A stretch of 64,000 nt of DNA from Enterococcus mundtii (lineage in GTDB: Bacteria; Bacillota; Bacilli; Lactobacillales; Enterococcaceae). Location of the stretch: NCBI RefSeq assembly GCF_002813755.1, contig NZ_CP018061.1, positions 297,001 to 361,000 of the forward strand, in the 5' to 3' direction. Shown piece by piece: positions 9,806 through 44,800 of the stretch (position 1 is its first letter; every line of letters starts with the position of its first letter). The notes below the pieces were generated by a model. The model ran no database searches and was not told where the DNA came from. It saw nothing but the letters and a program-made list of their open reading frames with translations. Position numbers and translations under genes: made by a program.

Positions 9806-9830
9806 GAATAATTTTTCTATATTTGCTTTT

Positions 9831-15568: not shown

Positions 15569-15735
15569 TGGATCAATGGTTGACAGAACAATTAGCCGAA
15601 TTGAGTACGCAAGCGGATTATGAGGGCAAAGCCTTACTTCATGAAATGTCACGCTTATTTGTCGAAATCAATGAACGGATCGAGCAGTTGCAAGGAGAAA
15701 TCGATGGAGAATCTTGGAATCATCAAAAATGGTGA
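15568..15735 (+). CDS. small helical protein coupled to the oxidoreductase
   Basis: A 55-residue ORF starting in the overlap TAATG with the preceding gene: MDQWLTEQLAELSTQADYEG at the start and NERIEQLQGEIDGESWNHQK near the end. It is acidic, has no hydrophobic segment and is predicted to be a helical hairpin or coiled coil. The composition is coding-like and the one-base overlap is typical of real operon pairs. The function is unknown; it may be a partner of the oxidoreductase. Confidence 0.7.
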   Translation: MDQWLTEQLAELSTQADYEGKALLHEMSRLFVEINERIEQLQGEIDGESWNHQKW

Positions 15736-15852
15736 TTTTTCTTCAGTAATAACATAATAAAAAATGTTCATAACGCTTATTATTTGCTACAATGGAACTA
15801 CAAGAAAGTTGGTAACGCTATTTTTTTACAGAAATAACAGGTGGTGAATGAA

Positions 15853-16752
15853 ATGAATGAAGAAAATGAACAGCGTGGCAATGTTCGATCAGCTCGAAGA
15901 CAACAACAGAAACAAGCATCACGCATGCGTATGATGAAAATCGGTGCCGCTGTTGCAGTAGTCTTACTACTGGTTGGTGCAGGTACTGGATTATATCTCC
16001 ATAGTAGAAACAATGCCAGTGAAAACTCGGTAGCAAAGACGAGTGAAACGACGCAATCGTCCACAGCTTCAACTACTGCTTCATCTGAAACTGAAGCAAC
16101 ACAAGAAAGCAGCGAAGCAACAGAACCTTCAGGAGCTATTTCTGAACAACTACAAGCAGTCGTTGCAGATTATTCGAAGAAAATCGAAGATAAAACCCCA
16201 GTGTTGATCGAAGAATACCAAGCAGAGATCCAAAACAATCAAGACGGTGTCAATGGTCTTTCGGTCATTGCCAACCGAAAAGCAAGAGAACTTCAAGCCT
16301 TGTCGGATGAAGGAATCAGTAAATTAAGAGGGATGTACCAAGATGCTTCCAACAAGGAGGATATCGACCTAGATACCATGATCAATCAGCTATCTGCAAG
16401 TTATACGGCGCAGGTCGCTCGGATCTCCGACATTTATCTGCGAACAAGTGCGGAACTTCAAGCAGCGACACCTAGTAGCGAATCTTCTTCGGAAGAGACG
16501 ACACCTTCGACGGAAGCGACACCAGAAACAACAGAAACGTCGGAGTCACAAGCCGATCAGTACACGGCACAGTCCACAGAAGATACGAGCAATCAAGCCA
16601 ATCAAGCAGCTACAACCGTTGTACGTGAAGGCGAAGGTCCAAATCAAATTGCGCAACGGACGGGTGTGCCAGTTGAGACGATCTTGTCCTTGAATGGCAT
16701 GACGATGGATGATTTCTTCTTTAACCCTGGTCAAGAATTACGTTTGAATTAG
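15853..16752 (+). CDS. membrane-anchored LysM domain protein
   Basis: A protein of about 299 residues. The start at 15853 is chosen because AGGTGGTGA lies 5 bases upstream. A short basic cytoplasmic tail is followed by one membrane segment (about 28-50, IGAAVAVVLLLVGAGTGLYL). A Ser/Thr/Glu-rich linker, a helical region (about 95-195), a second Thr/Ser/Glu-rich linker and a C-terminal LysM domain (about 255-299, VREGEGPNQIAQRTG...FFFNPGQELRLN) follow. It should sit in the membrane facing out and bind peptidoglycan. It has no catalytic domain, so a structural or regulatory wall role is likely. Confidence 0.85.
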   Translation: MNEENEQRGNVRSARRQQQKQASRMRMMKIGAAVAVVLLLVGAGTGLYLHSRNNASENSVAKTSETTQSSTASTTASSETEATQESSEATEPSGAISEQLQAVVADYSKKIEDKTPVLIEEYQAEIQNNQDGVNGLSVIANRKARELQALSDEGISKLRGMYQDASNKEDIDLDTMINQLSASYTAQVARISDIYLRTSAELQAATPSSESSSEETTPSTEATPETTETSESQADQYTAQSTEDTSNQANQAATTVVREGEGPNQIAQRTGVPVETILSLNGMTMDDFFFNPGQELRLN

Positions 16753-16796
16753 GAAGATCAAGAAGAAAGATTCAACTTCAATTGATTAGATGAAGT

Positions 16797-16836
16797 CACA
16801 AAAATGGTTCTTTTTGCCAATTTTTGTGGCTTTTTT
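16797..16836 (+). terminator. terminator after the LysM gene
   Basis: CACAAAAATGG pairs with CCAATTTTTGTG (one unpaired base) across a 9-base loop and is followed by GC and six T. Confidence 0.85.
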
Positions 16837-16941
16837 GTTCTAAATACGTTTCGTTCTCCACTGGCTCATCATGAGTGGGTTGTGATTGGTTGTTTTTTTG
16901 TTAAGATAAAGAAGTGAATGTAACCCGTAAAGGAGAAGATC

Positions 16942-17649
16942 ATGAAAAAACGAGAATTCATCGTCCAAGATTTATTGAGTAAGATCTATCAAGAAGAATT
17001 TAAAGATGGAAAATTACCGAATCAACGAAAACTAGCGGAAATCTATCATGTTTCTCGCTTTACGATCCAACAAGCGATCAAAAACCTGGAAGAAATCGGT
17101 ATTGTCCGTGTCGTTCAAGGATCAGGTATCTTTATCCATGAAAAATGGGTCAAAAATCCCTTGATCTTCAATTCTTTGACACGTACCCCTTATGATCGGA
17201 TCCATTCAAAAATGATCAGTTTAAACAAAGCACCAGCAACGGCGGATGAGCAAAAAATCTTTCAACTTGATGACGGCGCCGAAGTTTGGACATTTGAACG
17301 TATTCGAATCGTTGATTATAAAATCGAGCAGTTAGAAATGTCAAAAATGCCGGTAGCAATGTTTCCCGACTTATCCCAAGAAGTCATCGAACATTCCATC
17401 CAAAAGTACGTGGAACAAAAAGGCTATCGAATTTCTCACTATATCACGAGTTATGACCCAATCACGACTTCCAAAGAACAATCAAAAATATTGCTATGTA
17501 AACGCGGTACACCAGCCATGCAAATCACGAACCGAGCTATATTAGAAGATGGACAAGTCTATGAATACAGCAGTATCATTGCCATCGACTACTCTGTGAC
17601 TTACATCCGCCCCTTTGACCGTGAGATCCATCGTTCGAGGATTGATTGA
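16942..17649 (+). CDS. GntR family regulator with UTRA domain
   Basis: A protein of 235 residues. The winged helix is at the N-terminus (about 1-68; LPNQRKLAEIYHVSRFTIQQ, VVQGSGIFI). A UTRA ligand-binding domain (about 85-225) of the HutC subfamily follows. Such regulators usually sense phosphosugars and control nearby PTS or catabolic genes. The nearest candidates are the dehydratase and beta-glucoside PTS genes 1.4-3.6 kb downstream, now separated from it by the MazEF module. AAAGGAG lies 8 bases before the ATG. Confidence 0.88.
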   Translation: MKKREFIVQDLLSKIYQEEFKDGKLPNQRKLAEIYHVSRFTIQQAIKNLEEIGIVRVVQGSGIFIHEKWVKNPLIFNSLTRTPYDRIHSKMISLNKAPATADEQKIFQLDDGAEVWTFERIRIVDYKIEQLEMSKMPVAMFPDLSQEVIEHSIQKYVEQKGYRISHYITSYDPITTSKEQSKILLCKRGTPAMQITNRAILEDGQVYEYSSIIAIDYSVTYIRPFDREIHRSRID

Positions 17650-28854: not shown

Positions 28855-30330
28855 TTGAAAGACTTACAATTGGCATTTATCAGTAATCGAACGACGAGTC
28901 GTTTGTTTCGAATATTGAGTATGATTGAACGAAGACGATTGTTTACGATTGGAGAATTGGCCGAAAAACTGCAAGTGACAGAACGAACGATTGCCAATGA
29001 TATCAAGTACATCAAAGACTATTTTGATGATTGTATCAGTTTAGATTCAGGAAATAGTGGAATCTTTTTTGAAGAAAAAAAAGCTTCGATGTATCAAGAA
29101 AAAAAGCAGAAATTACTTGAGAATGAGTGTCTATTTGAAATCATCGGGAATATTTTTTTAGGAGAATTATCAACAATCGATGAACTTGCCCATCACTATC
29201 ATTTTTCAGAGAGTACCTTTCGCCGGCTATTGAATCGAACAACCACAGTATTGAAGAGCTATGGACTGCAGTGGGCATCCAACCCGTTGTCGATTGAAGG
29301 AAGAGAAGCTAATTTGCGAAAATTCTTCAAAGATTTTTATTATGAAGGAGTAGAAACGCCCTATACGCTTGTTCCTGATATTGAATTACATGAATTGGTT
29401 TTAAAAAAATTAAGCAATAAATTGGGCCAAGATGAGGTTGGATCTGGAACTACGCCAGCAGCCTTTTATTATACTTTTTATATCGCAATCAAACGTGCGT
29501 GACTGGGTTTTTCTATAGAGATTCCAAGAAAATTAGCGAAATTAGCATACAAAGCAAAGAATTTTTCTCTCCTTCATTCTTTGAAAGATGACATCAAGAA
29601 ACTTTATAAGGTCGAATTATCAAAAGAAGAATTCGCTTGGATTTATTTAGTCACTGTCTGTAAACGTACCCTAGATCATGAAGAATCAGAGAAAAAGTTT
29701 TATAAAGATTTTCATGAAGGCACAGAAATTTCTCAACTCACGAATCGATATTTAAAGGAATTTGATTTCCCTAAAAATATTGATCAAAAAATCACAACAT
29801 TCTTACGCTCGTTTTTTCTATCTAGAAAAATAAATGATTTGTTATCACCTGTCTTAAATAAAGAGGCGATAGAGATAAAAAAAGCAGTCATACGCTCAGA
29901 TAATGAGAATTATCAGCGGAATTTAGGTTTTTTTAAAAAAGAAAGGAAAAGCTACTCTATTTCTTCAAAATACATGGAAGATATAAGTGTGAGTTTAACG
30001 ATTTATAGTAATTTGATTTTCGATTTTTATTTACCAAGTAAAACAATTTACTTTCTTCTGGAAGGGGATCATTTTGTTTGTCAACAAATTATAACTCGTG
30101 TACGTCAACAATTTGGGAGTAAACATACATTAGTTTTTTTACCGCTTTATTATCTAGCAGAAGAAGTATTGAACGCCGCACATATTGATTTAATTGTGAC
30201 AAACTACAATCGCTATCTTTTAGATTACATCATTGAGAGCGATTTTCTTTTGTTAAAAGCTGTTCCAGATGAACATGATTGGCAACGATTAGAAAGAAAA
30301 ATAAATCCTTATCGTAAAAACTATAATTAA
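28855..30330 (+). pseudogene. Mga-like regulator gene with in-frame TGA
   Basis: The 492-codon frame matches the two intact Mga-like genes of this island in length and layout. It has an N-terminal HTH (FTIGELAEKLQVTERTIAND), a second HTH (TIDELAHHYHFSESTFRRLL), a PRD-like middle and a C-terminal EIIB-like part ending AVPDEHDWQRLERKINPYRK. Codon 216 is TGA (29500-29502) in IKRA-stop-LGFSIEI, most simply a changed TGG. The start is TTG with GAGGTGG upstream, as in both paralogues. It stands just upstream of the LRR surface operon, which it presumably once activated. The truncated 215-residue N-terminal product keeps both HTH regions. Confidence 0.82.
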
Positions 30331-30595: not shown

Positions 30596-33298
30596 ATGAA
30601 CATAAATACAATTAGCCGAATCGTTGGAAAGTTATTATTGATCATGGTTTTGCTTTTACCCCAGCTCCCATTTCAACTAACCTATGCACATGATTATTCA
30701 AGCTCTTCTGATAATCATGAAGTAGCAGCAATTACGGAATATCCAGAAAAGCAAGAAGAATCGGGAAAAAAAGAAAGTGAAGAGGTAAGTAATCGTGCTA
30801 CTGAATATCGTTTAGAATTAGTTGCAAGCCCACTAGCTGGTGGTAATCCTAGACGAACTGATTCGTCAGGATCGAATGTGGTATGGCTCCAGGTAGGACA
30901 GAGCATGGGTAATATGCACGCGTTCCCCAATCCCGGTTACCGATTTTTACGCTGGGAAGTCGTTTCAGGTCCAATATTCATATTTAGTCCAAATATCCCA
31001 GATCTTGCTGTAAGCCAAAGTGAAGCTGGAAACTCTGTGATTCGTGCAGTCTATGAATCGGTTCCAGGTGGGAATATTACTGTAAAGCATGAAGATGAGG
31101 AAGGAAATCAATTAGCTAATCCTAGCGTGCTGACTGGATTAGTTGATCAAACCTACACAACCGAAGCGTTAAGCATTAGTGGTTGGCAATTGAGTAAGAC
31201 TCCCGAAAATGCCTCTGGGACTTTTAGAGTAGAAGAACAAACGGTTGTCTATACTTATGAGCCTGAACAGAATCTATGGGGAACGGTCCCTTGGTCGTAT
31301 GAGGAAGGAACGGAAACAATCACATTATATGGTGGGGAAGCTGGCGAAGTAGCAGATGCTCCATGGAAAACCTACTCTTCGGTCAAACAAATTATTGTGG
31401 AAGATCAAGTGATACTACCAGAAAATTCAGAGAGGCTGTTTTCAAGCTTACGAAATCTGGAAGTAATTGAGAATATTGATAGATTGAATGTTTCAAATGT
31501 CGAAAACATGATGAATATGTTTTCCAATGCGTCAAGTCTAAGAGAATTAGATTTACTTAATTGGGATACATCAAATGTAATAAATATGAGCGGGATGTTC
31601 AGTTTCACAACTTCTTTGATTGAGTTAGATTTGAATAATTGGAACATGTCGAATGTAACCGATATAAGCTATATGTTCAATGGTACTTCCTCGTTGAAAA
31701 CGTTACATGTGTGTGATTGGGATACGTCGAATGTCACAACTATGAGTGGCATGTTTCAAAATGCAAATTCCTTAATCGAATTGGATATAAGTAGCTGGAA
31801 TACATCTAAGGTAACTAATACGAGCTTCATGTTCCAATCTGCAAACTCAATCACAGAACTAGATTTAGGAAATTGGAATACCTCAGCTTTATTTTCTACT
31901 ATGTTTATGTTCAATGGTGCAAATTCTTTAACAAAATTAGATATCAGTAATTGGAATACAGCAAGCTTAAGTTTAGTTGTAGCTATGTTTAATAATACAT
32001 CTTTAAAGACAATCGTTCTGGGAGAAAAAACGGTTTTCCCACCCACGTCATCAGCTGGTTCGACAAATTTGCCACAGATTGAAATAACTGATCAATATAC
32101 AGGACGGTGGGTTTTAGAAGAAAGTTTAACGAGCGGAACTGGGGTTATCGCCTTTGAAAACTCAACCGAGTTTATGAATAACTATGATGGCACTTATCCA
32201 GGTACGTATATCTGGGAGCCAGTTCCTCCTGAACAACTCATTGCCAAATTTGACCCTGTGAGTGACCAATCTGTAGCGATTCATGGTCATGCCACAGAAT
32301 CAGTTGACCATTTGACGATTACCTATAAAAACACAGAAGGAAGTACAGTAGTTCTTGAAAAAGATTCTCCTCGCATCGTCTGGGGAGAGTATCAAGATAC
32401 CCAGGAGAAGGTTCGCTCGTTCCAAATCAATTTGACAGAAAATGAACGGCTTGAAACGGGGTCAACGGTCGAAATCAAACTATCCAAACCTTCAGGAGAC
32501 ACAACTGGTGATGTAGCAGAAGAGCAAACAGTCATCAAAGGGATTGATTATCGGAGCAATAACTTTACGTTAGATCGTTCTAAGCTCAATGAGTTAGCTA
32601 CTGTCGAAGCATTACATGCGCTTATTCTTCAAGAAAGTCGTGCACAAGCAAAAAATATCTTATCTGAAGAAGACATGACCAATGATTTTCGCATCGTTGA
32701 GACCGATCTTTCGTTAGATAGCGAAGAAGACGGAAGTTACTACGCGATTCTTGAAGTCGGCAATAAAGCGTATCAAATGACGATTGATATTGATCTTACC
32801 TCCAAAGTTGAACATTTAAGGGTAACGATCCCTGTCAAAATGATTTTTGAATCATTGTATGACGAAGAAGAATCAAACCGCCAGTTTGAGAGCCAAACCT
32901 ATGAGATCCACAACCAATCTTCGGTAGCTATTGATACGTATATCAACCAAGTTGCTATTGATGATTCTGCTGGAATCGTTCTTTTAAAAAAAGGGGAAGA
33001 TCCACTGGATTATGCAGAAAGTGCAGTGGAAGATCCTAGTTATGAGGATATTACGAAGCCACTGTTGCGCTTGCATCTCCAAACGCAGGAGACAAAAAAA
33101 CAGTTATACGCAACGATGCCAGAGCAACATTTGATTCGTTTATCTGAAGGAGATCGTACCCCCCTTTCCTTATCGGGAGAATTTTATGGGAATTATCCAC
33201 GGTGGATTGATCATCCTGAACTTGAGCAAGGGGGCTATTACGAGAGCACACTTGTACCTAATTACCGAATCGTGTTACGATTCGTCCCACGAATTTAA
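30596..33298 (+). CDS. secreted LRR (BspA-type) and MucBP surface protein
   Basis: A protein of 900 residues. A signal peptide (about 1-32) is followed by an acidic linker, a beta-rich segment, and a MucBP-like domain near 158-222 (VKHEDEEGNQLANPSVLTGL). About seven 25-residue BspA-type leucine-rich repeats follow (about 280-480; for example LRELDLLNWDTSNVINMSGM). The C-terminal third includes a domain with VTIPVKMIF, YEIHNQSSVAIDTYI and YRIVLRFVP, which reappears in the small secreted protein two genes downstream. There is no LPXTG, membrane anchor or W-x-L motif, so retention must be non-covalent. AGGAGGAG precedes the ATG. It is the first gene of a four-gene surface operon. Confidence 0.88.
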   Translation: MNINTISRIVGKLLLIMVLLLPQLPFQLTYAHDYSSSSDNHEVAAITEYPEKQEESGKKESEEVSNRATEYRLELVASPLAGGNPRRTDSSGSNVVWLQVGQSMGNMHAFPNPGYRFLRWEVVSGPIFIFSPNIPDLAVSQSEAGNSVIRAVYESVPGGNITVKHEDEEGNQLANPSVLTGLVDQTYTTEALSISGWQLSKTPENASGTFRVEEQTVVYTYEPEQNLWGTVPWSYEEGTETITLYGGEAGEVADAPWKTYSSVKQIIVEDQVILPENSERLFSSLRNLEVIENIDRLNVSNVENMMNMFSNASSLRELDLLNWDTSNVINMSGMFSFTTSLIELDLNNWNMSNVTDISYMFNGTSSLKTLHVCDWDTSNVTTMSGMFQNANSLIELDISSWNTSKVTNTSFMFQSANSITELDLGNWNTSALFSTMFMFNGANSLTKLDISNWNTASLSLVVAMFNNTSLKTIVLGEKTVFPPTSSAGSTNLPQIEITDQYTGRWVLEESLTSGTGVIAFENSTEFMNNYDGTYPGTYIWEPVPPEQLIAKFDPVSDQSVAIHGHATESVDHLTITYKNTEGSTVVLEKDSPRIVWGEYQDTQEKVRSFQINLTENERLETGSTVEIKLSKPSGDTTGDVAEEQTVIKGIDYRSNNFTLDRSKLNELATVEALHALILQESRAQAKNILSEEDMTNDFRIVETDLSLDSEEDGSYYAILEVGNKAYQMTIDIDLTSKVEHLRVTIPVKMIFESLYDEEESNRQFESQTYEIHNQSSVAIDTYINQVAIDDSAGIVLLKKGEDPLDYAESAVEDPSYEDITKPLLRLHLQTQETKKQLYATMPEQHLIRLSEGDRTPLSLSGEFYGNYPRWIDHPELEQGGYYESTLVPNYRIVLRFVPRI

Positions 33299-33330
33299 AG
33301 AAAAAAATAGTTAACAAGGAGGTGAAGCCA

Positions 33331-33849
33331 TTGGAGGAAACGAACCAAGCACAAAATAAGAATAAGCGTAAATGGCTCTTGTGGTTTTTGCTATTTTCGT
33401 TGATTGCCGGTGGTCTTGCCTATTATTTCAATCAATCAAAAGATCAGGTTCCATTGATCAGTGCGGATCTTTTACCAGCAGTTGGTGATGCCTCTGATCA
33501 ACGCTTGGCGAAACGTGCGCAAGAAGTAGCCGATGCCAATTATTTTACATTACAAATCAATCCAGAAGCCGTCTTTGAGAACGGACAGAGTGAAGGCTCG
33601 ATCGAGATTGTCAATCCTGGGACGAATGTTTATCCGATCGCAGTTGATATTTCTTTACTCTCTACTGGAGAGTTGATTTATTCTTCGGGTGCCATCCATC
33701 CAAACCAATTCGTAGAGAATGTAAAATTGGAAAAACAATTAACTAAAGGAGAGTATCCTGCTAAAGCCACCGTTAATATTTATGATCCTGAAACGAAAGA
33801 AAAACAAGGGGTCACTGAGGCGGAAGTAATGATTATCGTTAAAAACTAA
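33331..33849 (+). CDS. membrane-anchored extracellular Ig-like protein
   Basis: About 172 residues. The start is taken as TTG at 33331, 8 bases after AAGGAGG; a GTG at 33322 would overlap the ribosome site. A basic N-terminus and one membrane helix (KWLLWFLLFSLIAGGLAYYF) are followed by an outside domain with an Ig-like strand pattern (FTLQINPEAVFENGQSEGSI, PIAVDISLLSTGELIYSSG, ATVNIYDPETKEKQ). By position and topology it could take the place of the DUF916/DUF3324 protein of WxL operons, holding the secreted partners at the membrane. No defined family is recognised. Confidence 0.8.
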   Translation: MEETNQAQNKNKRKWLLWFLLFSLIAGGLAYYFNQSKDQVPLISADLLPAVGDASDQRLAKRAQEVADANYFTLQINPEAVFENGQSEGSIEIVNPGTNVYPIAVDISLLSTGELIYSSGAIHPNQFVENVKLEKQLTKGEYPAKATVNIYDPETKEKQGVTEAEVMIIVKN

Positions 33850-33874
33850 AAAAAAAGAAAATGAGGGAATTTAG

Positions 33875-34432
33875 ATGAAAAAAATAGTAGCAGCACTTAT
33901 AAGTACAGCAACAATCGCAGGGATTATGGCAACTGGGACAATCGCTAGAGCGGAGCAAGTGATTGACGGGCGTGAAGGAGAGACGTCAGGAGACGTTCTT
34001 GTACGGGGGATCATCGGTGAATTCGATAATACGACACCTGGACCAAATCCTGAGGATTTGGATCAATGGATCAATGTGACGATTCCAACAACCGCCTTAT
34101 TTTACACAACAAAAGCCTCAAATCATACCACAATTACGTCACCTGAACACACGATTACGAATAATTCTGCTGTTGGCGTGATTGCTTCCGTTTCTGGCGT
34201 AGATACACCAACGAATATGGCTGAAGTAGACTCATTGAAAGTGAATACGATTGATTTGTTTGAAGATGGCAAGCCAACAGAAACGGTAGCTGAACTTTTC
34301 AGACTCCAAGGAAATCAAGGGACGAATGAAGGAAAATTTACTTTCACTGGTAAAGTCACGCCGGTCAATGCCTCAGCAGAGTTAAACCCAACATTTAAAT
34401 TAGTTTTGAGTTTCTCTCCTAATGTAGCATAA
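33875..34432 (+). CDS. small secreted protein of WxL-like locus, without W-x-L
   Basis: A protein of 185 residues with a signal peptide (about 1-26, ending TGTIARAEQ). The mature part starts with VLVRGIIGEFDNTTPGPNP, like the N-terminus of the next gene product. The rest is a beta-rich domain: VTIPTTALFY, HTITNNSAVGVIASVSGV, GKFTFTGKVTPV and the end FKLVLSFSP. The size, order and final strand recall small WxL proteins, but neither W-x-L motif is present. The same domain pattern ends the 900-residue LRR protein of this operon. GAGGGAA precedes the ATG. Confidence 0.8.
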   Translation: MKKIVAALISTATIAGIMATGTIARAEQVIDGREGETSGDVLVRGIIGEFDNTTPGPNPEDLDQWINVTIPTTALFYTTKASNHTTITSPEHTITNNSAVGVIASVSGVDTPTNMAEVDSLKVNTIDLFEDGKPTETVAELFRLQGNQGTNEGKFTFTGKVTPVNASAELNPTFKLVLSFSPNVA

Positions 34433-34472
34433 AAAAGAATCACTTAAATCCCAAAAAGAAGGGATCAATCGT

Positions 34473-34838
34473 ATGCAAAGAAGAATGAAGTTGTTCTATA
34501 TCACGGGACTATTCTTTATTATCGCTAATGGATTGCTTACTGAGGTAGTTGGTGCAGATACGACAACGGGACAAATCACTGTCACTGGACGAATTGGAGA
34601 AGACACTAGCACAGAAAAAAGTATAACGATCAATGGATCACATGGAAACGAGGACAAGAAGCACACCCTTGTCGCTGATATTTCCGAACTAAAACAAGGG
34701 AAGCTACCAAAAACAAACGCTTTGAGCGGTCAGCGTTTCTTGTGGCTTGGCTATTTACTCGTTACCGCCTGGCTTGTTATTTCGACTAGAAAGAATCATC
34801 GCTCAGGTAACAAACGTCCGAAAAAGAATAGTTACTAA
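34473..34838 (+). CDS. LPKTN cell-wall-anchored small protein
   Basis: A protein of 121 residues. A signal peptide (about 1-28) is followed by a short beta segment (QITVTGRIGEDTSTEKSITI), then a sorting signal: LPKTN (about 79-83), a hydrophobic helix (FLWLGYLLVTAWLVIS) and a positively charged tail. The motif has Asn instead of the usual Gly at position 5, pointing to a sortase with relaxed or different specificity. AGAAGGGA precedes the ATG. It is the last gene of the LRR surface operon and likely gives it a covalent wall foothold. Confidence 0.85.
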   Translation: MQRRMKLFYITGLFFIIANGLLTEVVGADTTTGQITVTGRIGEDTSTEKSITINGSHGNEDKKHTLVADISELKQGKLPKTNALSGQRFLWLGYLLVTAWLVISTRKNHRSGNKRPKKNSY

Positions 34839-35020: not shown

Positions 35021-35048
35021 CGCTTTATAAAAGGAAGGCGTGTTAGAT

Positions 35049-36194
35049 ATGAAAAAAATTATGCAGCTCAATTTGGTATTTTTTTTAGGAGGAATAATAG
35101 GCTTACTCTTTGTACGTTCAACAACAAGTGAAGCGACAATGCATGATTTCCAAACAAATCTTGGAATCGGAGTGAAAGAATCGGTCAATGGGATTTTACT
35201 GGAAGATGGTGAATCATTAGCCGATAACGTCCATCATTTTATCAGTGAAGATGGGGCGTACTATGTCGTAAACAAGGAAAATCGTAAAACAGTGGAGGTA
35301 AGAACGTGGTACCAATTTCGAAATGCTATCAATGATCAAAATGTCAGCGTTATCAATGTGTCAGCTAGCTTCAATACGACCTTTCATTCGTTGGATACGA
35401 TTGATCGCCCATTGACGATCAATTTTATCAATGCTGCTCGTATAGATTTAGAAAATAATCATGCACTCAAGCTGGCAAAGCATTCTACTTTAGAAATCAA
35501 AGCGAACGCCAAGTCGCCTATATTTGTTAGTCAAAATCAATTAAAGCAACCATTTATCCAAAGTTCTTATGGGAGTACGATTCGTCTAGAAGGTGAGGTG
35601 GTCATCGGAGATGGTTCAACTGAACTGAGAGAGCAACCTTTTATTCGAACAGAAGGATTGATCGAGGTTCCGTCTGGCTCCAATGTAAGGATATATGAAG
35701 CAATCGAAGCAAATGATTTATTTGTGATCAACTATGGTCGTTTAGAATTACGCGCACATGAAATCACCCCCATAAAAATGGGGATCAATGGGACGATTAG
35801 AGTCGGTGAATTTTCTTCGTTAAAAGTGACGCATGGGGGGAGTCATTCAGTGATCAAAATGACTGGCGGGGAGATTTTTTTTGATAATCCGTACAGTATA
35901 CATTTAAAACAGACTGGCTTCGGTGGGCTTGTCGCTCCATTGATCGATTCTTCTGCCGTACTCATGGAAATCAATGCCGTGAGAAACGCTTTTTGGGAGA
36001 ATTATAATATGAGTTTTCGTCCCACCCATGTTTGGAATAGTCAATTACAGACACGACTGGGTGGCCCCCATGGTTCGCAAGTTCTTCGTTCAAATTCAGT
36101 TAGTTTTGAAAATCATTTTTTAGGATTTGATTCTTATCGAGAATATACTGCTGGAATGGAGATGCCATTATTTCCTGATACATTCCCGGAGTAA
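35049..36194 (+). CDS. secreted pectate-lyase-like adhesive domain protein (paralogue 1)
   Basis: About 381 residues. The start is taken as the ATG at 35049, with GGAAGG 10 bases upstream. A signal peptide is followed by a right-handed beta-helix-type region: VRTWYQFRNAINDQNVSVIN, then repeated short strands (PLTINFINAARIDLENNHAL, QPFIRTEGLIEVPSGSNVRI). No anchor motif or W-x-L is present. It is about half identical in pattern to the next gene, including INAVRNAFW and the ending GFDSYREYTAG...LFPDTFP. Such domains are found in adhesins and are not expected to have lyase activity. It has its own promoter. Confidence 0.82.
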   Translation: MKKIMQLNLVFFLGGIIGLLFVRSTTSEATMHDFQTNLGIGVKESVNGILLEDGESLADNVHHFISEDGAYYVVNKENRKTVEVRTWYQFRNAINDQNVSVINVSASFNTTFHSLDTIDRPLTINFINAARIDLENNHALKLAKHSTLEIKANAKSPIFVSQNQLKQPFIQSSYGSTIRLEGEVVIGDGSTELREQPFIRTEGLIEVPSGSNVRIYEAIEANDLFVINYGRLELRAHEITPIKMGINGTIRVGEFSSLKVTHGGSHSVIKMTGGEIFFDNPYSIHLKQTGFGGLVAPLIDSSAVLMEINAVRNAFWENYNMSFRPTHVWNSQLQTRLGGPHGSQVLRSNSVSFENHFLGFDSYREYTAGMEMPLFPDTFPE

Positions 36195-36280
36195 CATGAT
36201 TGAAGTAGAAATCACAACAGCTTTTGAAGAACCTTGAAAGAATCAATTAAAAAATTTCGTATAGTTACGAAAAAACACTT

Positions 36281-36309
36281 TTGATTCAATGTGAGTTCTT
36301 CGTTAATCT
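36281..36309 (+). promoter_or_regulatory. promoter of the second pectate-lyase-like gene
   Basis: TTGATT, 17 bases, TAATCT, 29 bases before the ATG, with the shared upstream stretch AAAAACACTTTTGAT. Confidence 0.5.
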
Positions 36310-36338
36310 TAAATTATCAAATGAATGGAGGAAAGAAA

Positions 36339-37502
36339 ATGAAACGAATGACTCTGATGAGTACCTTATTATTAAGTGGTATGCTCCTTGCTGGCCCAAT
36401 TTCAGTAACGAATGTCGCTGCAAGTGAAATCGTACCAGAAGCACAATTATTGACAGAAGGCGAAACTGCTGGTGGTGTTTTTCTGAAAGATGGGGAAACA
36501 TTATCAATGTATGGGGAAACATTTACAAATGATGAAGACGTGGAATTTTTTGTAGATGATCAAAATCGCACAACTGCATCCGTAAGAACATGGTCTGGAT
36601 TTAGAAGTGCCATCAATAATTCAAATGTGTCAGTAATCAATGTCACTTCAAGTTTCAATAGCGCTTTAACTAGTCTAAACACAGTCAATCGAGCGGTGAC
36701 AATCAATTTCCTCAATAATTCGACTATCAATATGAATAATAATCATTCCCTACATGTAGGGTTTGGTGGACATGTTCATTTTAACTCTAGCTCGAATCGA
36801 CCAATTGTTACAAACGGAAACCAAGTCAGACAACCATTTATACAAGGTGTCTCTGGTTCAACAGTAAGTTTTTCTGGGAATACGTTGGTTGTTGGGAATG
36901 AACAAACAAGACAGAGACAACAACCATTTATCCGAACAGATGGTCTAGTGCAAATCGACTCTGGCTCCCAAGTGATCATGAATGAAGCCATCGTGGCGAA
37001 TCAATTGAATGTGATCAACAATGGTAGTTTGACTGTCAATTCGAATATTTTATCACCTGTACAAATTTCAACAAATGGTCGGATGTATGTGGGGGAATTC
37101 TCAACATTTAAAGCAGATCATACTGGTGGAGAGCCAGTAGTAAAAGTCCTTGGATCTGGACATTTAACAATTGATAATCCTTACCAAATCCATTTAAGAC
37201 AAACGGGTTCTGCCGCTTATTCTAGTCCATTGATCCATACGTTAGGAACAAATATCCAGATCAATGCCGTTCGAAATGCTTTCTGGGCGAATAATAATTT
37301 TGGACCAACACCGACTCATGCTTGGACAGCTCATCTACAAACACAGTTAAGTGGTGCAAATGGGAGTCAAGTGGTTTCTTCGAACATCAATAGCTTTACA
37401 CAGAATTTCTTAGGATTCAATGGTTATCGAGAGTATACTGCTGGAAGTGCTAGTCAGCTGTACCCAGATACATTTCCCTCAACTGAATCAATGAACGACT
37501 AA
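36339..37502 (+). CDS. secreted pectate-lyase-like adhesive domain protein (paralogue 2)
   Basis: About 387 residues. The start at 36339 has TGGAGG 7 bases upstream. A clear signal peptide (about 1-28, MKRMTLMSTLLLSGMLLAGP) is followed by an acidic segment and then the beta-helix region: VRTWSGFRSAINNSNVSVIN, AVTINFLNNSTINMNNNHSL, QPFIRTDGLVQIDSGSQVIM. The C-terminal part matches paralogue 1 (INAVRNAFW, GFNGYREYTAG, LYPDTFPS). It has no LPXTG or W-x-L. The tandem arrangement with separate promoters suggests duplication. The same opening motif occurs in the 1625-residue WxL protein. Confidence 0.84.
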   Translation: MKRMTLMSTLLLSGMLLAGPISVTNVAASEIVPEAQLLTEGETAGGVFLKDGETLSMYGETFTNDEDVEFFVDDQNRTTASVRTWSGFRSAINNSNVSVINVTSSFNSALTSLNTVNRAVTINFLNNSTINMNNNHSLHVGFGGHVHFNSSSNRPIVTNGNQVRQPFIQGVSGSTVSFSGNTLVVGNEQTRQRQQPFIRTDGLVQIDSGSQVIMNEAIVANQLNVINNGSLTVNSNILSPVQISTNGRMYVGEFSTFKADHTGGEPVVKVLGSGHLTIDNPYQIHLRQTGSAAYSSPLIHTLGTNIQINAVRNAFWANNNFGPTPTHAWTAHLQTQLSGANGSQVVSSNINSFTQNFLGFNGYREYTAGSASQLYPDTFPSTESMND

Positions 37503-37719: not shown

Positions 37720-39237
37720 TCATTCGCATATGGATGAGGGAAAGCTCGTTTTGTCAGCTAAAAAATATTGATTGATGATTTTCGGATTGATTTTTTCGAG
37801 TAAGCGATTCCAATCAGAAGCAGAAGGAATAGACCGAAAAAGAATACATTCTGTTACTTCTTGGAATTCTTCTACATGTTCAGGATGATTAGTGATCAAA
37901 AAATCTATCTTGTTTTTAAGAAGATAGTTCTTGTTTACTTCACTAGCGTTTGGATAGAACACACATTGATATTCCATAAAATATTTATTCGATATGGCTT
38001 CAATGAACTGTATGACATGATTATTGCCTTCAAAAAGAAAGGCAATATTTTTTTTGTTTTTCCAGTAGCGTTCTCGAATGGTTTCAACGTAGATCACTAG
38101 GCTAGAAGCGAAATCTACTAAAAAGTCATGAGAGTATAGCGAATGATAAGCCGAGCTGTTTTCTAGAAAATATTGGTACTTACGACACTCATTCGGGAAG
38201 ATTTTTTTAATAAATCGATTGATATCTTGCGTATTTCGATTAGCAGAAATGCACAAATATTCTTTCAGTTTCGCGGTTGTAAAAAAAGATTCTAAAAAGA
38301 TCAGATTGACGAGCTTATTTTCATCGCTACAGTCTAATATCTCTAGAAACTCTTTTGCAAGTCGTTTGCTTTCTGGCCACTGATTGTATGTTGAACAAAA
38401 TTGTTTTTCAACAATGATATCACTCATTTTTCTCTGTGTAATAATGCTACAGAATAAGAAAATCAGTTCATCTTCAGGCAAACGGATGCCGTAATATTTT
38501 TCAATTACGTCATTTATTTTTTCGGCATGTACTTGTTGCATCCGATCAGTCAGGACACAGCGTAAGTGGTTATTTACGTTCACAGTATTTCCCTGCATGA
38601 ATCGCTCAACCGAGATATAAAGTAAGTAAGTGTATAAGAAAAATGAGGTATTTCGATAGAAGTCATTCTTATACAGACAACTGATTTCATTCACCGCTTG
38701 CTGAGCGGAAACAGAAGGGAAGATGGTGTGCGGAGTGATTTCAGATTCATAAAAGAACGTGCAAAAAAAATGTCGTATATCTGCTTCTTGACCAATGATA
38801 TTTACGGGATCATGCGTGATATCCAAATCAAAATGAACTAACTGTGATTGGATTTTTTTGAGGTATTTCAAGAGGGTCGTTTTAGAGAGATGTAACTGAT
38901 CGGACCAATCGTCAAGGGTATATAATTCAGCAAAAAAAATTTTCTCAAGAATTAAAAAAAGTGGCTCGTTCTCAAGTAAAGCAGTTTTTTTCTCTTCGTA
39001 AGTAACTAATTTTAATTGTTTGAATACATACCCCTGATGGGTAGATTCAATCGTGATCGAATCTTCAAAATAATCTCGGATCTGACAGATATCTTTACCA
39101 ATTGTTCTAGAAGTGCTCTCAGTAAGTATTGCTAAGTCATTCGCGTTGCAACAAGCATTCTTTTCAAATTCATTGAGGATTTGAAGCCATCGTATCAGTG
39201 GTTTATTGGTAATGAAATTCAGTTGGAATGTTTTCAA
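37720..39237 (-). CDS. Mga-like transcriptional regulator
   Basis: About 505 residues. The start is taken as TTG at 39237 (MKTFQLNFITNKPLIRWLQI), with GAGGTGG 5 bases upstream, matching its paralogues. The N-terminal HTH (DLAILTESTSRTIGKDICQI), the second HTH (TLDDWSDQLHLSKTTLLKYL), a PRD-like helical middle and a C-terminal EIIB-like domain follow (KKNIAFLFEGNNHVIQFIEA, IDFLITNHPEHVEEFQ). Mga-type regulators activate surface-protein genes in response to sugar status through PTS phosphorylation. It diverges from the WxL operon at 39503, its most likely target. Confidence 0.88.
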   Translation of the reverse strand: MKTFQLNFITNKPLIRWLQILNEFEKNACCNANDLAILTESTSRTIGKDICQIRDYFEDSITIESTHQGYVFKQLKLVTYEEKKTALLENEPLFLILEKIFFAELYTLDDWSDQLHLSKTTLLKYLKKIQSQLVHFDLDITHDPVNIIGQEADIRHFFCTFFYESEITPHTIFPSVSAQQAVNEISCLYKNDFYRNTSFFLYTYLLYISVERFMQGNTVNVNNHLRCVLTDRMQQVHAEKINDVIEKYYGIRLPEDELIFLFCSIITQRKMSDIIVEKQFCSTYNQWPESKRLAKEFLEILDCSDENKLVNLIFLESFFTTAKLKEYLCISANRNTQDINRFIKKIFPNECRKYQYFLENSSAYHSLYSHDFLVDFASSLVIYVETIRERYWKNKKNIAFLFEGNNHVIQFIEAISNKYFMEYQCVFYPNASEVNKNYLLKNKIDFLITNHPEHVEEFQEVTECILFRSIPSASDWNRLLEKINPKIINQYFLADKTSFPSSICE

Positions 39238-39406
39238 TGTACCCACCTCTCATAGATCAGTTTAGTTTAGGGTAGTTGATTCTTTGTTTTAGGTGTAGCT
39301 AATTTTAAGTAAATTATATCTATTAAGTATAATTAGTAAATAGTAATAATTTCAGAGTATGGTGAAAAACGCTAATTGCGAAAGAATGCGTGTGTTGTTT
39401 AAAGTA

Positions 39407-39502: not shown

Positions 39503-39874
39503 GTGAAAAAGAAGCCTTGGTATTTGTTATGGACCATTTTATTGTTTCTTGGGATGCTTCATCAACCAGTTCAAGTCTTTGCGGCAGAAGGCTCCTCTGT
39601 AGAAACGAATAAGAATGTAGGGTTTTACGGAGAAATCGATTATGAAGGGGACCCTAAACCACAACCACCTTCTGAAGAGCAGGCGCAACCCTCAGATAGA
39701 GACGAATATGTACAGGTAAATGGACAATTACCAAAATTAAATCAAGTGATACCAAGTTACGGGTTGCTGGGTCTACTAATTCTTTTATGGGTCATTCGAA
39801 CTTGGTTAAAACGAAGAGATAAGAAAATAAACGAGCAAGTCGCACTATCAAGTAGATGTTTTACAAAAAAATAA
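39503..39874 (+). CDS. small surface protein with LPKLN anchor-like signal
   Basis: A protein of 123 residues. The start is GTG with AGGAGG 10 bases upstream; the nearby ATG is closed at once. A signal peptide (about 1-27) precedes a short acidic, Pro-rich mature part (DYEGDPKPQPPSEEQAQPSD). LPKLN (about 76-80), a hydrophobic helix (YGLLGLLILLWVIRTWL) and a basic tail follow. The arrangement is that of a sortase substrate, but Thr of LPXTG is Leu and Gly is Asn, so it may stay a membrane protein instead. It is the first gene of the WxL operon, and its counterpart in the other operon has LPKTN. Confidence 0.8.
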   Translation: MKKKPWYLLWTILLFLGMLHQPVQVFAAEGSSVETNKNVGFYGEIDYEGDPKPQPPSEEQAQPSDRDEYVQVNGQLPKLNQVIPSYGLLGLLILLWVIRTWLKRRDKKINEQVALSSRCFTKK

Positions 39875-39896
39875 AACAAATAGGGAGAACGAATAA

Positions 39897-40700
39897 ATGA
39901 AAGCATTAAAACTAGTATCAATGTCAGTGTTATTAGCAAGTCTAGCAACAGGAAGTATGGTTGTTCATGCAGACAATACAGATCAGGATGGAACACTAAA
40001 AACGAATGGACAGATCCAATATCGTGAAGCGGATGAGGACAACGGTGAAACAATTGATCCAAACCCGGGACCAGAAGAAGTCATCGTACCTCCTACTCAA
40101 GATGGTGCTTTTGCAATTGCATATGTTGGTGATTATGATTTTGGTTTACGTCAAAATTCAGCATTAGATCAATCTTATCCAGCTGCCGCTTGGTGGTTTG
40201 ACATCGATGAAGAATCAACTGATTTTCCTAATCCTGATATGAATAGCCCATGGGTCAATGAAGCGACAAAACAAGCTGCACGTACACAATTTGCTCAAGT
40301 ACGTGACTTACGTGAAGACCTAACAGGTTGGAACCTGGCATTGAAACAAGAAGCACAATTTACGAATGGGGAAAGAAGCTTAAATGGTGCTCAAGTCAAG
40401 TTTGCGAATGGGACAGCTCAAAATACAAGTGACGAATTACCAACGATAAATTCAGGTTTCACGTTGATTCCGGAAAATAGCCGAGTGATCATGACTGCCG
40501 GAAGCAACATAGGCTATGGACTAAGTACTGCCATGTGGGGAGATAAAACCAACTTAGTGCAAGACAGTGAAGTAGATGGAGGATTGGCTAATCCTTCTGT
40601 ACAATTAAGTGTACCTGGCACAACACGTACAGATGCTAATTCCAAATATACGACTAATTTATTATGGACATTGTCTGCAACACCGGCAAATATCAATTAA
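39897..40700 (+). CDS. small WxL domain surface protein (Swp type)
   Basis: A protein of 267 residues with a signal peptide (about 1-25, ending VVHADN). A Pro/acidic linker (DPNPGPEEVIVPPT) is followed by a WxL domain. The first W-x-L motif is GWNLALKQEAQF (Trp near 144) and the second LLWTLSATPAN at the C-terminus. The WxL domain binds peptidoglycan non-covalently. GGGAGAAC precedes the ATG, 22 bases after the LPKLN gene. A terminator follows, so this gene is probably the most highly expressed of the operon. It corresponds to swp in the swp-duf-lwp operons of E. faecium. Confidence 0.92.
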   Translation: MKALKLVSMSVLLASLATGSMVVHADNTDQDGTLKTNGQIQYREADEDNGETIDPNPGPEEVIVPPTQDGAFAIAYVGDYDFGLRQNSALDQSYPAAAWWFDIDEESTDFPNPDMNSPWVNEATKQAARTQFAQVRDLREDLTGWNLALKQEAQFTNGERSLNGAQVKFANGTAQNTSDELPTINSGFTLIPENSRVIMTAGSNIGYGLSTAMWGDKTNLVQDSEVDGGLANPSVQLSVPGTTRTDANSKYTTNLLWTLSATPANIN

Positions 40701-40725
40701 CTAGCTAGAGATTTGAAAGGTTGAT

Positions 40726-40760
40726 AAAAAACAACGATGCAGTCAGCATCGTTGTTTTTT
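40726..40760 (+). terminator. internal terminator of the WxL operon
   Basis: A perfect 15-base stem AAAAAACAACGATGC / GCATCGTTGTTTTTT with loop AGTCA. It ends 15 bases before the next ATG, with the ribosome site directly after it. Partial read-through would lower expression of the two downstream genes relative to the small WxL protein. Confidence 0.88.
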
Positions 40761-40775
40761 AGAAAGGAGATAACT

Positions 40776-41861
40776 ATGCCTTTATTGAACAAGTTTACAG
40801 CATCTTTTCTGGTTATGCTTTATGTAATGATCGGGTTTGTTGGTTTTTCTCAAGAGGTATTTGCCAATGGTGAACTAAATTTTAGTGTTCGCACAATTAC
40901 GCCTGAAAGTCAATTTGGGGATGATAAAGGCTACTTTGATGTGGAATTGCAACCAGGAGAAACAGAAGAACTCACGTTAGTGGTGAAAAATGTTAGAAAT
41001 ATCCCGATCGATCTCTCGATCACAGCTCATACTGCCTACACAAATATCAATGGTGTGGTTGAATATGGCGGAGAAACTGACCAGCCCGATCCTACATTAA
41101 AAGTGGAAATGAAGGACTTACTGGATGTCGAAGATGAACCCATTCGTTTAGAAGCAGGAGAGGAAAAACGGATCGTTACAACCCTCACTATGCCTCAGGA
41201 TGAGGTAGAAGGATTATTAGCCGGTGGCTTACAACTAAGCGAAGTGGCACAAGAAGAAGAGGAAGAGGATTCTGAGGATAAAGGAATGCAGATCATCAAT
41301 TCTTTTTCTTATGTAATTGGTGTCGTAGCGAGTAATGATCGTACACAAACGATTGTTCCAGAATTGGCGCTTTTAGATGTATTTGCGGATCAAATAAATT
41401 ATAGAAACGCCTTTAGTGCGACGATTCAGAATTTCTTACCTACTTTTGTGAATGAACTAAGTGTGGAAGCCTCGATACGTAGAGAAGGATCTGATACGAT
41501 TTTATATCGAGCATCAGAGGAGATGATGCAAATGGCACCTAACTCCAATTTTAATTTTCCAATCTCACTCAATGGCGAACGTTTTAGAAGCGGGACATAT
41601 GTGCTGAATATGACGGCTCGCTCTGGCGAACATGAATGGACTTGGGAAGAAACTTTTGATGTGACAGCAGACGAAGCAAGACGCTTGAACCAATCAGATG
41701 TTTCCGTTAAAGATACCAACTGGTGGTTGATTGCAGCAATCGTTCTAATCGTGATCATTATTAGTGTACTCGCCTATACGACATACAAAAATAAGAAAAA
41801 AGCAAAACTAATGCAAGAAAAATACATGGATACACTTTCAGAAAATAAAACAGATGACTAG
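40776..41861 (+). CDS. DUF916/DUF3324 WxL-associated membrane protein
   Basis: About 361 residues. The start at 40776 has AAAGGAGA upstream. A signal peptide (about 1-30) is followed by DUF916 (about 35-155; FSVRTITPESQFGDDKGYFD, GETEELTLVVKNVRNIPIDL) and DUF3324 (about 165-310; SFSYVIGVVASNDRTQTIVP, RSGEHEWTWEETFDV). One membrane helix (NWWLIAAIVLIVIIISVLAY) and a basic tail close it. Such proteins bind WxL proteins and peptidoglycan and hold the complex at the membrane. It corresponds to duf of E. faecium operons and sits between the small and large WxL genes. Confidence 0.93.
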   Translation: MPLLNKFTASFLVMLYVMIGFVGFSQEVFANGELNFSVRTITPESQFGDDKGYFDVELQPGETEELTLVVKNVRNIPIDLSITAHTAYTNINGVVEYGGETDQPDPTLKVEMKDLLDVEDEPIRLEAGEEKRIVTTLTMPQDEVEGLLAGGLQLSEVAQEEEEEDSEDKGMQIINSFSYVIGVVASNDRTQTIVPELALLDVFADQINYRNAFSATIQNFLPTFVNELSVEASIRREGSDTILYRASEEMMQMAPNSNFNFPISLNGERFRSGTYVLNMTARSGEHEWTWEETFDVTADEARRLNQSDVSVKDTNWWLIAAIVLIVIIISVLAYTTYKNKKKAKLMQEKYMDTLSENKTDD

Positions 41862-41874
41862 AGGAGGAGGACCA

Positions 41875-44800
41875 ATGCGTCAAAAAGTATGTAAAATGAT
41901 GACTAAAATAAGTGTTTCAATCTTTGCACTATATACTTTGGGTATACCTTTCCTCGCTGTTGCGGAGACAATCGATCAAGGGAGTCAACCTATAAACACG
42001 CCGAACAGTAATAGTCAATCAACAGAATCAGCTGAAGTGAAGGATACCCAGTCACTGGCACCCGCTTTTTCTTTTGAGCAAGCGGTAATAAAGGGAACTG
42101 AAAAGACGGTAACTGCCCTTTCGTTTATAAGTACAGAAGAAGTGGATAACGTGGCAATCAAACTTCCGTCAACTGCTGAGATCATTGAAGATGAATTGTC
42201 ATCAGGGATGAGTAGCAGTTATGATGAAACGTTTGACCAGTGGCTCCTATCATCAGAAACTCCGAAAAAGGAATTTACCGTACCTGTGATGTTTGCAGAA
42301 GCAGGAACCTATTCAGTAACTGTAGGAGAAGCGGCAACTGTTAAAGTAGAAATCACGAAGGCTGATCCGAACCATTCTTCAGGAGAAGAAAAGTCAGAAA
42401 ACGACGAACCAAAGGAAGAAAGAAATCGCTCGGAAGAGAAACAGGACGAAGAAAATGTCTTTCAAGGAGCAACGGTACCGGTTTCGACTCGTGCAGAATT
42501 TTTAAGTGCACTCGCCAATCCAGAGGTTTCTATCATCAATTTAGAACGTTCGATCGATATAGGTTCAGTTATCAGTCCAGAAAACTTAGACATTGATCGT
42601 TCGCTAAAAATCAATGGGCAAATGAATACTTTGAATATCGGCACCGGACAAGTGCGTTTATTGACGACTACTGAGAGCAAAACTTTAAGAATTGAAAATA
42701 CTTTTCTTAATAAAACAGATACCAATCCCTTTGTTATCGGGCAATCGTCTGGTGAAAATTGGACCCTTCAAATGGAAGATGTTTCAAGAGACAGCTCATC
42801 GATCAATTATTTTAGAGTAGCTGATATCTCAAGCGCAGTGGTACGAATAACTGGCGGTGAGTTAACCATAGATAATAGGATCAATCTACCAGGCGCGCTG
42901 TTTACGACAAAAGAATTTATCGTAGAAAATCAGGCAGTCGTGAAGCTGGGGAATACTCAAAATTCTGCGTTGGCATTTACGAGAGCGAATGCTAAACTGA
43001 TCGTCGCAGACGGAGCAGAACTGTTTATTACGAACAGTGGAACAACTGCTTTGCAAAATTCCGTCTATTTTACGGGGAGCAATGCGACAGTTTCTGTTAA
43101 AAACAACGGTAACTTACAAATCCAAGCGGATGGTGCAGCATCTACTTCGTCAGACGCTACAAGTAGGAATGCGCTCTCGATGACAGGGAATCAGTCGAGC
43201 ATTGAGCTGGAAAATGGAAGGTTAAATGCGACAACTACAGGTGGACAGGCAATTATCATGACAGGGGAAAACCCAACAATCGATGTGGCATCAGGTAGTC
43301 AATGGCAAAGTCAATCGAATACAGCGCATTCCATCAACCTTACAGGTGCAAATGGCGCATTCAACATAGCTAAATCAACGGCGGTAATCCAATCGACTAC
43401 AGGAAATAGTCTAGTCATGTCTGGAAACGATGCAACTTTTGAAGTAAATGACTCAAGTAATGTAACGATCAACTCTAGTACAGGCAATCGGCTGACAATG
43501 ACTGGTACAACGCCGACAATGACGATCAATGACAGTGATTTGAAGATGACTGCGACAACTGGGGCAGGTATTCGATTGTTGAATCAAGAAGCGATGTTAA
43601 CTGTTGATAATAGTGCTGTTGCTATTACAAATACAGGGAACCGAACCGAGGATATCAATCAACTCGGCACCACCACATTAGGTAAAAATTCTACGTTACG
43701 TATCCAAAATGGTGCAACGCTAGACGTTCAAGGTGCGTTAGTATCTACCGCAGGTGTGAATAGTTTGATTGGACTTTATGGGGAAGAGGCAAAAGCAACT
43801 CTTTCAGAAAATGCTCAACTGAATCTGACAGTCAACAGTGGAACAGGAAATGGCATATATTTACAAGGAAAGAAAACGGGTATTACATTTGCAGATTCTA
43901 AAGCTGACATACAGACAGTGACAGGAAGAGCGGTGGAACTATCTGGGGCTGAGCCATCTGTCCATTTAGATAGAAGTGACTTGACAACGAAATCAACAAG
44001 TACCGGTGGAGCTGTTCTTCTGACAGGTGAAACTAGTTTATTTACCCTAGATAACCAAAGTAATATGAGTGTAGAAAATGAAGGCGGAGCAATTGCTAAT
44101 GTCTCTCTTCAAGGAAATCAAGCAAAAATGGTTGTTGACAACCAATCACAACTATCCGTCGCAGTTCCAAGTACTAATTCAGCTGACACTGTCATAACGA
44201 ATAATAGTATCTATTTAAAGGGAAATGCTCCTACCATGGAAATTACTCGAGGAGCTAGCGTGGATGTATTGGTCCGCTCGGGTACGAAGAGAGGGATTCG
44301 CTTAGACGGTGCGAATGCTGTTTTATCACTTAATCAAGGCGGAAAGTTAACTGCGGAAACGCAAGCAGCGACAGCGATACAATTGAATGGTGATTATGTC
44401 AAACTCCTAGCAGAGAATAAAGAGACAAGTATCAATGCGAAAAGTAACTATATCGCAACCACTGTAAATGGTGTATCCACTGTGAAGTTAGGCGAAGAAG
44501 AAACAGAAAAAATTGGGCGTGAGCCAATTGTAGGAGCATCCGATTCAGCAAATATCACACTTTGGGCGAACTCATCCTCTGCATTAGTCTTACAAGGAAT
44601 CAATGGACAGTTCAATGTAAATAGCAAGGCGACATTAAAGTTAGATTCAGGTCCTTCTGGACAACTTGAAGCAAATAATGCGAATGCTACTTTAAGATTT
44701 TTACGTTCCGGTCCAAATAATACAGGAACGACGCACGGTGGCTATCAATTCAATATCAATGGTGGAGATATGACCGTGACTAAGCGAAAAGGTAACGCAG

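Follow-up and report, generated by a model that had tools for sequence, protein, structure and literature searches.

The window analysed here is a 64,000-nucleotide stretch (contig NZ_CP018061.1, positions 297,001 to 361,000) of a 3.5-Mb Enterococcus genome close to E. mundtii, and our subject is a four-gene operon for surface proteins that spans 30596-34838 of it. An Mga-type regulator lies before the operon and two pectate-lyase-like adhesin proteins are encoded after it. An initial annotation, made from the letters alone, had placed four open reading frames (ORFs) at 30596-33298, 33322/33331-33849, 33875-34432 and 34473-34838, and all four were found there, with the small LPKTN protein (34473-34838) encoded last. 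For the gene of the single-pass immunoglobulin (Ig)-like protein, the ribosome-binding site AAGGAGG speaks for the TTG start at 33331 chosen in that annotation over the GTG at 33322. The nearest named relative of this protein, 93% identical, is from E. mundtii Pe161. The parts of the operon are as follows.

30596-33298, + strand: large surface protein, 900 amino acids (aa), with signal peptide, MucBP, DUF285/PARCEL leucine-rich repeats (LRRs) and C-terminal shared domain; proposed tip adhesin
About 31073-31261, + strand: MucBP of the large protein (E 1.4e-17)
About 31460-32005, + strand: DUF285/PARCEL LRRs of the large protein (DUF285 5.6e-40, PARCEL repeat 5.7e-38)
32801-33295, + strand: copy of the shared domain at the C-terminus of the large protein, residues about 736-900; proposed acceptor; related to the secreted family with a profile-profile probability of 99
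33331-33849, + strand: Ig-like single-pass membrane protein, with AlphaFold2 (AF2) model; proposed membrane-held assembly chaperone
33875-34432, + strand: secreted 185-aa protein with signal peptide, N-terminal extension and shared domain; proposed pilin-like link
33989-34021, + strand: donor-strand-like motif GDVLVRGIIGE in the N-terminal extension of the secreted protein
34064-34429, + strand: shared domain of the secreted protein (residues 64-185; predicted local distance difference test (pLDDT) 75-97 in blocks of ten)
34473-34838, + strand: small LPKTN protein, 121 aa, with signal peptide, about 50 residues and sorting signal; proposed wall-anchored base peptide
34569-34601, + strand: donor-strand-like motif GQITVTGRIGE in the small LPKTN protein

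A shared C-terminal domain and a membrane Ig-like protein

The large and the secreted protein had been described as ending in the same series of motifs, and these are present: VTIPVKMIF and VTIPTTALF, IHNQSSV and ITNNSAV, LSGE and FTGK, and NYRIVLRFVP and NPTFKLVLSFSP, in the large and the secreted protein, respectively. In the last motif, however, the spacer after Asn is 0 or 2 residues and not the one or two given by N-x(1-2)-[FY]. Both Trp motifs of the WxL domain had been reported missing; W-x-L indeed occurs in neither C-terminus, but the secreted family does hold one Trp, in W-[IV]-N-V-T-[ILM]-P, which is invariant across 27 sequences, the window's included. The extreme ends, FSPNVA in the secreted protein and RFVPRI in the large one, are not sorting signals. 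Comparison of a profile of 16 large-protein C-termini with one of 20 divergent secreted proteins gave a probability of 99 (E 3.8e-18, 124 columns), placing the common domain beyond chance. By profile comparison, the two C-termini are homologous and not unrelated.

In the AF2 model of the secreted protein (mean pLDDT 75.2), a low-confidence N-terminal part precedes a confident beta domain from about residue 61. The predicted fold resembles donor-strand pilus subunits, the best VIA match being 7pnb, a thread. The complex of WxL with EfmWxLIP1 (9i25) and EfmWxLIP1 itself (9i1y) are in the Protein Data Bank (PDB) and are absent among the 50 matches listed for the secreted protein, which excludes nothing. 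The Ig-like protein had been called single-pass, and its model (mean pLDDT 78.3) bears this out: in the numbering of the 175-aa ORF, one transmembrane (TM) helix (5-38) is followed by a helix (59-72) and a C-terminal Ig-like sandwich (77-174), with no second Ig domain. Among other Ig proteins, its predicted fold resembles the first domain of pilus chaperones. Searches with the Ig protein (Pfam, NCBIfam over cut-off for the window's protein, PDB sequences) returned no convincing family, and neither did Pfam and PDB sequence searches with the secreted protein; 20 secreted proteins had no NCBIfam family over cut-off, and single weak matches were all that appeared in either case.

Distribution and gene neighbourhood

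The genome that contains the window has six adjacent pairs of secreted and Ig genes. A close Ig profile matched 14 of the 15 genomes of the Genome Taxonomy Database (GTDB) genus, the window's included, and a broader one 75 of 105 Enterococcaceae genomes at E<=0.001, with 65 strong matches, all at E<=1e-12. The remaining ten were discounted, their best match being only near 1e-4, and in the four of them with listed rows the match is confined to model positions 5-82. Of the matches near E 1e-4, many span just the membrane-helix region and were not counted as members. The genes are thus common in the family, yet neither protein has a convincing Pfam family (20 of each scanned). Beyond it, 295 genomes drawn evenly from the order gave 12 matching genomes from three other families at E<1e-30, and 398 genomes of the phylum gave 8 at E<=1e-8, the window's included, the other 7 reaching only 1e-9 to 1e-17.

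The initial annotation had expected the four genes to co-occur. Loci were collected via the Ig protein, with the presence of other genes not a selection criterion, and were collapsed on identical last 90 residues of this protein, leaving 48 distinct strong loci. A secreted gene lay within 3 kb on the same strand in all 48, and a large protein ending in the shared domain in 38, whereas WxL and WxLIP genes lay within 3 kb in a single locus (L063). There, the shared-domain operon (4215-8071) directly adjoins a WxL cluster on the same strand. Next to 41 of 54 secreted ORFs (near-duplicates included; rule without motif requirement) stands a small protein with a sorting-like signal. A separate count of 41 of 48 loci used a rule that needs no LPXTG but does need a loose motif-like pattern, and it tests neither.

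Ten weaker Ig loci were also collected, with a secreted protein in one only (L055, a truncated neighbour). The other nine belong to a second, distant branch of the Ig protein. Loci of this branch (L088, 4402-8601 on G000:C2; L089-L096; L136-L142) are partly in genomes outside the order. In several of them, the adjoining secreted proteins carry, as read by eye, an 'IPAxI ... GxYTxTLxF' pattern, and a large protein of LRR type or a small LPxxG-like protein is additionally encoded at some. In two genomes of Gordonibacter, a genus of Actinomycetota, large, Ig and secreted genes lie side by side (L124, L125), which suggests transfer between phyla. A plasmid search returned 11 records, all under 60% identity and hypothetical or not annotated. 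Elsewhere in the window's genome (L051, G000:C1 at about 2.78 Mb), two large proteins of 1286 and 1388 aa (6970-10830 and 12997-17163) have the shared domain at their C-terminus, and the fetched 18 kb contain neither a secreted nor an Ig gene of these families; these proteins are possible orphan tip adhesins that borrow another operon's parts.

A recurrent strand motif and the proposed assembly

A V-x-G-x-IGE stretch common to the secreted and the LPKTN protein had been mentioned in the initial annotation as a minor point. It is real and recurs across loci, and the mechanism probably turns on it, in the role of a donor strand. Secreted proteins, the candidate pilins, carry [VI]-x-[VI]-x-G-x-[ILV] soon after the signal peptide: one pattern covers 46 of 54, as against 3.5 in shuffles. 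The Gly is invariant in 20 aligned secreted proteins and the consensus has alternating hydrophobics; percentages by motif column are partly circular, since motifs were placed by such a pattern, and in 5 of the 24 rows of that set (L056, L057, L064, L098, L099) the motif was placed or the pilin chosen by eye. With a position matrix trained on other loci, the motif reached p<0.05 in 29 and p<0.01 in 23 of 39 small LPXTG proteins, here called anchors. These comprise 31 distinct best-scoring strings, 21 of them within the 29 rows at p<0.05, and the picked string looks wrong in L104, which is counted, and in L122, which is not significant. A fragment (L104 9710) and two candidates too short after trimming (L060, L099) were left out, and for five rows with no pattern match in the secreted protein (L055 twice, L064, L098, L104) only the same locus was withheld from training. 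At p<0.05, the same motif occurred in 1 of 49 large-protein N-termini, in 3 of 49 segments ahead of their C-domains and in 2 of 62 Ig proteins. The window's own anchor motif scored p 0.001 against 1000 shuffles with a matrix trained without the window's locus and without secreted proteins over 60% identical. Moreover, anchor and pilin motifs of the same locus were more alike than permuted pairs (18.2 vs 15.0, sd 1.0, p 8.5e-4, n=22). Motif placement was automatic in this test, and its 27 rows, from which identical duplicates and rows lacking an automatically placed pilin motif were excluded, became 22 after five near-duplicates were removed.

Pilus assembly by strand slotting is best known from Gram-negative bacteria. 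In donor-strand pili, a subunit that is both donor and acceptor links onward, the tip adhesin is an acceptor only, and a terminal piece may be a donor only. The distribution of the motif suggests the pattern that donor-strand exchange predicts, with a putative acceptor only in the adhesin, both elements in the pilin and a donor only in the anchor.

We propose, at somewhat better than even confidence, that the products of the operon form a short adhesive stalk, anchored to the wall and put together by donor-strand complementation. This proposal builds on the homology of the acceptor domains, the co-occurrence of the genes, the presence of the donor motif in pilin and anchor and not in the adhesin, and its locus-specific resemblance. 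From these and from the models we infer the folds, the filling of grooves, the chaperone role, the order of assembly, adhesion and all physical steps. The shared domain would be an incomplete beta-sandwich with an acceptor groove, which the Ig-like protein would cap at the outer face of the cytoplasmic membrane, like PapD-type chaperones. The large LRR/MucBP protein would form the tip, because it has the acceptor domain and no donor strand, and the 185-aa protein would form one or more links, because it has both the strand GDVLVRGIIGE and the acceptor domain. The adhesin's groove would take the N-terminal strand of a pilin, and the pilin's groove that of another pilin or of the anchor. Finally, the small LPKTN protein would combine the strand GQITVTGRIGE with a sorting signal; sortase would attach it to peptidoglycan and its strand would plug the last acceptor. 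The window's operon is one of many related sets in enterococci and their neighbours that seem to build such stalks by strand slotting.

Several observations weigh against this proposal. The structural matches are modest. Common ancestry of the loci could add to the locus-specific motif resemblance. By electron microscopy, a strain overexpressing the WxL-type elr operon had no surface change or appendages (data not shown there), and for this reason we regard a short stalk as more likely than a long fibre. In addition, 8 of 44 small anchor-like proteins (L049, L053, L054, L097, L099, L105, L106, L123) have the motif and a C-terminal membrane segment without a hydrophobic N-terminal core. They start almost at the motif, with no upstream in-frame room for a signal peptide, whereas the window's own anchor has one. 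Such proteins would need another exit, for example as N-out tail-anchored proteins, or would weigh against the model, and our confidence in the donor-strand explanation was lowered slightly because of them.

Three other explanations were considered. A WxL-like complex without strand exchange, with non-covalent peptidoglycan binding by the domain, an Ig protein that stabilises it and an LPXTG protein as loosely attached helper, has in its favour a gene set that mirrors the csc/WxL clusters, modelled in the available text of PMC10599100 and PMC9772566 as a peptidoglycan-bound platform. We consider it doubtful, as it leaves unexplained a strand motif common to pilin and anchor but not adhesin, as well as the locus-specific resemblance of the motifs and the pilin-like fold matches. 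Of the steps in the proposed mechanism, the one assigned to the Ig protein is the least certain: with its generic fold and the equal or better scores of non-chaperone Ig proteins, this protein might be a sensor or plain membrane anchor instead of an assembly chaperone, an idea compatible with strand exchange among the other three proteins. Its constant pairing with the pilin (48/48), the many pilus-chaperone fold matches and the strand insertion into WxL predicted for the analogous WxL membrane protein (PMC10599100, available text) make this unlikely in our view. Most improbable is that the V-x-G-x-IG stretch serves the operon's secreted products as a common tag for processing or targeting (signal peptidase, sortase or export handling): in most pilins and anchors it does follow the signal peptide closely, and anchors without a signal peptide start almost at it, but it is missing from the large secreted proteins encoded in these operons (1 of 49 at p<0.05), which is why we rate this reading low.

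The donor-strand proposal was also compared with known systems. Subunits of chaperone-usher pili have a conserved Gly in their N-terminal extension, and their adhesins lack a donor strand. Enterococci have no outer membrane, and no usher is therefore expected. These pili (type 1, P, CFA/I, Csu) share with the window's system the predicted subunit fold, an Ig-fold partner and, in the available text of PMC12952627, an alternating-hydrophobic N-terminal extension. They differ in that the window's chaperone-like protein is membrane-bound with one Ig domain and the base would be fixed by sortase, and in sequence: a PDB search with the donor-motif profile gave one chance match (E 5.4), chaperone-usher sequences remaining unmatched. 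Donor-strand assembly outside Gram-negatives has already been described for Gram-positive TasA/TapA fibres, in which helper and subunit share donor residues, and for archaeal threads; in the portions of these sources available, no adhesin tip, LPXTG anchor or such membrane Ig partner is described. Sortase-polymerised pili (Ebp, Spa) are likewise Gram-positive with a sortase-linked base. Here, in contrast, only the 121-aa protein has a sorting signal; with the shared domain at the C-terminus of both pilin and adhesin, these two are not expected to polymerise covalently. The literature searched, which comprised no preprints, yielded no four-part adhesin set with a sortase-anchored donor peptide, and a prior description elsewhere is possible. 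If the donor-strand reading is true, the operon would be a Gram-positive adhesin-display machine with chaperone-usher pilus logic.

WxL clusters and neighbouring genes

The initial annotation had read the operon as a surface assembly system distinct from but parallel to WxL, equipped with a membrane partner and a wall anchor of its own. We retain this view; on the donor-strand reading, the parallel lies in the donor/acceptor logic that both systems follow. What changes is the role of the V-x-G-x-IGE stretch, recast as a donor strand. WxL/csc clusters (CscA-D; e.g. elrA-E) are likewise four-part sets, and the combination of large and small proteins with a common C-terminal domain, a membrane Ig protein and a tiny LPXTG protein is found in the window and at other loci. 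Both also have Mga-type regulator genes nearby in the window, and small WxL proteins and their anchors too have a common N-terminal strand. In contrast, the window's system has no W-x-L motifs and no Pfam WxL or WxLIP match, and WxLIP (DUF916-DUF3324) has two Ig domains and a C-terminal TM segment, whereas the window's Ig protein has one Ig domain and an N-terminal TM segment.

At E<=1, the family lists of 20 secreted proteins did not include Pfam WxL (PF13731), nor did this family match the window's proteins of this operon; its 24 places in the window's genome all lie elsewhere than the shared-domain C-termini. Among 53 relatives, two (P0026, P0048) are named 'WxL domain-containing' in UniRef, which speaks against a non-WxL status. 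WxLIP/DUF916 (PF06030) was not among the families listed for 20 Ig proteins (25 listed of the 34 with weak matches), and none of the 12 WxLIP_PGBD places in the genome is at a shared-domain operon. Aligned with hhalign, the shared domain and WxL gave 60.9% over 14 columns and, in a second run, 0.14% over 13 columns, and the Ig protein and WxLIP, on the YFDL strand, gave 15% over 45 columns. None of these profile links reached significance.

Examples from the WxL clusters of the window's genome are RNVTTNGTIEFTP at the start of small WxL proteins and RSVETEGTVGFTG at the start of the adjoining LPXTG proteins. A matrix was built from 10 of the 12 small WxL proteins (the other two had no pattern match); it scored five of eight anchors at p<0.01, two at 0.05 and 0.08 and one at 0.84, and none of seven large WxL proteins at p<0.05. 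By sequence, the WxL clusters show the same donor/acceptor strand logic. In the text available, Hassan et al. 2022 (PMC9772566) describe a loosely connected N-terminal strand over the WxL platform and suspect rearrangement, and Hassan et al. 2023 (PMC10599100) predict a WxLIP strand that inserts in parallel into a gap in WxL and completes its sandwich, with the two WxLIP domains perpendicular. By analogy, this predicted insertion resembles chaperone donor-strand complementation; a word search of PMC10599100 returned none of donor, LPXTG and chaperone. ElrA is transcribed but was detected only with at least one other operon gene, as a chaperone-less subunit might be expected to behave. Siezen et al. 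2006, in the part available, describe the LPXTG peptides as only 40-60 residues, not informatively alignable and acting 'through as yet unknown interactions'. If the donor-strand reading is true, a function for these tiny peptides of WxL-type operons would be explained, and the WxL-interacting membrane protein would be a chaperone in the bacterial membrane and not, as proposed in the available text of PMC10599100, in the host membrane. We see the balance as even on whether WxL clusters, the shared-domain system and probably the 'IPAxI' third branch, presumably of Listeria/Clostridia type, with its related membrane Ig protein form one superfamily of monoderm chaperone-assembled donor-strand stalks, each with an Ig chaperone, an acceptor-only tip, a donor-plus-acceptor link and a sortase-attached donor base, in which the tiny LPXTG proteins would be donor strands covalently fixed to peptidoglycan. 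At L131 (3485-4492, G000:C2), a WxLIP gene is in two pieces parted by a stop.

The gene upstream of the operon is the following.

28855-30330, + strand: Mga-type regulator with one in-frame stop, giving ORFs 28855-29502 and 29581-30330

It is presumed from its position to regulate the operon. E. mundtii Pe161 (L108) has the counterpart gene before the same operon as an uninterrupted 491-aa ORF, and with the regulator interrupted the operon may be silent or differently controlled in the window's genome. After the operon, a tandem pair (35040-37502) encodes similar secreted proteins of 384 and 403 aa with pectate-lyase-like adhesive domains; the Pfam cut-off for this domain was reached by the 384-aa protein and missed by the 403-aa one. 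An ordinary WxL cluster (39503-46752), 4.7 kb downstream of the operon, comprises a small LPXTG protein, a small WxL protein, WxLIP and a 1632-aa large WxL protein. NF053819 (EF2685/EF0750 LPXTG protein) scored 39.5 bits for the operon's LPKTN protein, under the cut-off of 47, and 79.7 for the LPXTG protein at 39503, over it. Ahead of this cluster, on the opposite strand, lies a gene for an AcpB/EbpR/MafR-family regulator (37720-39246).

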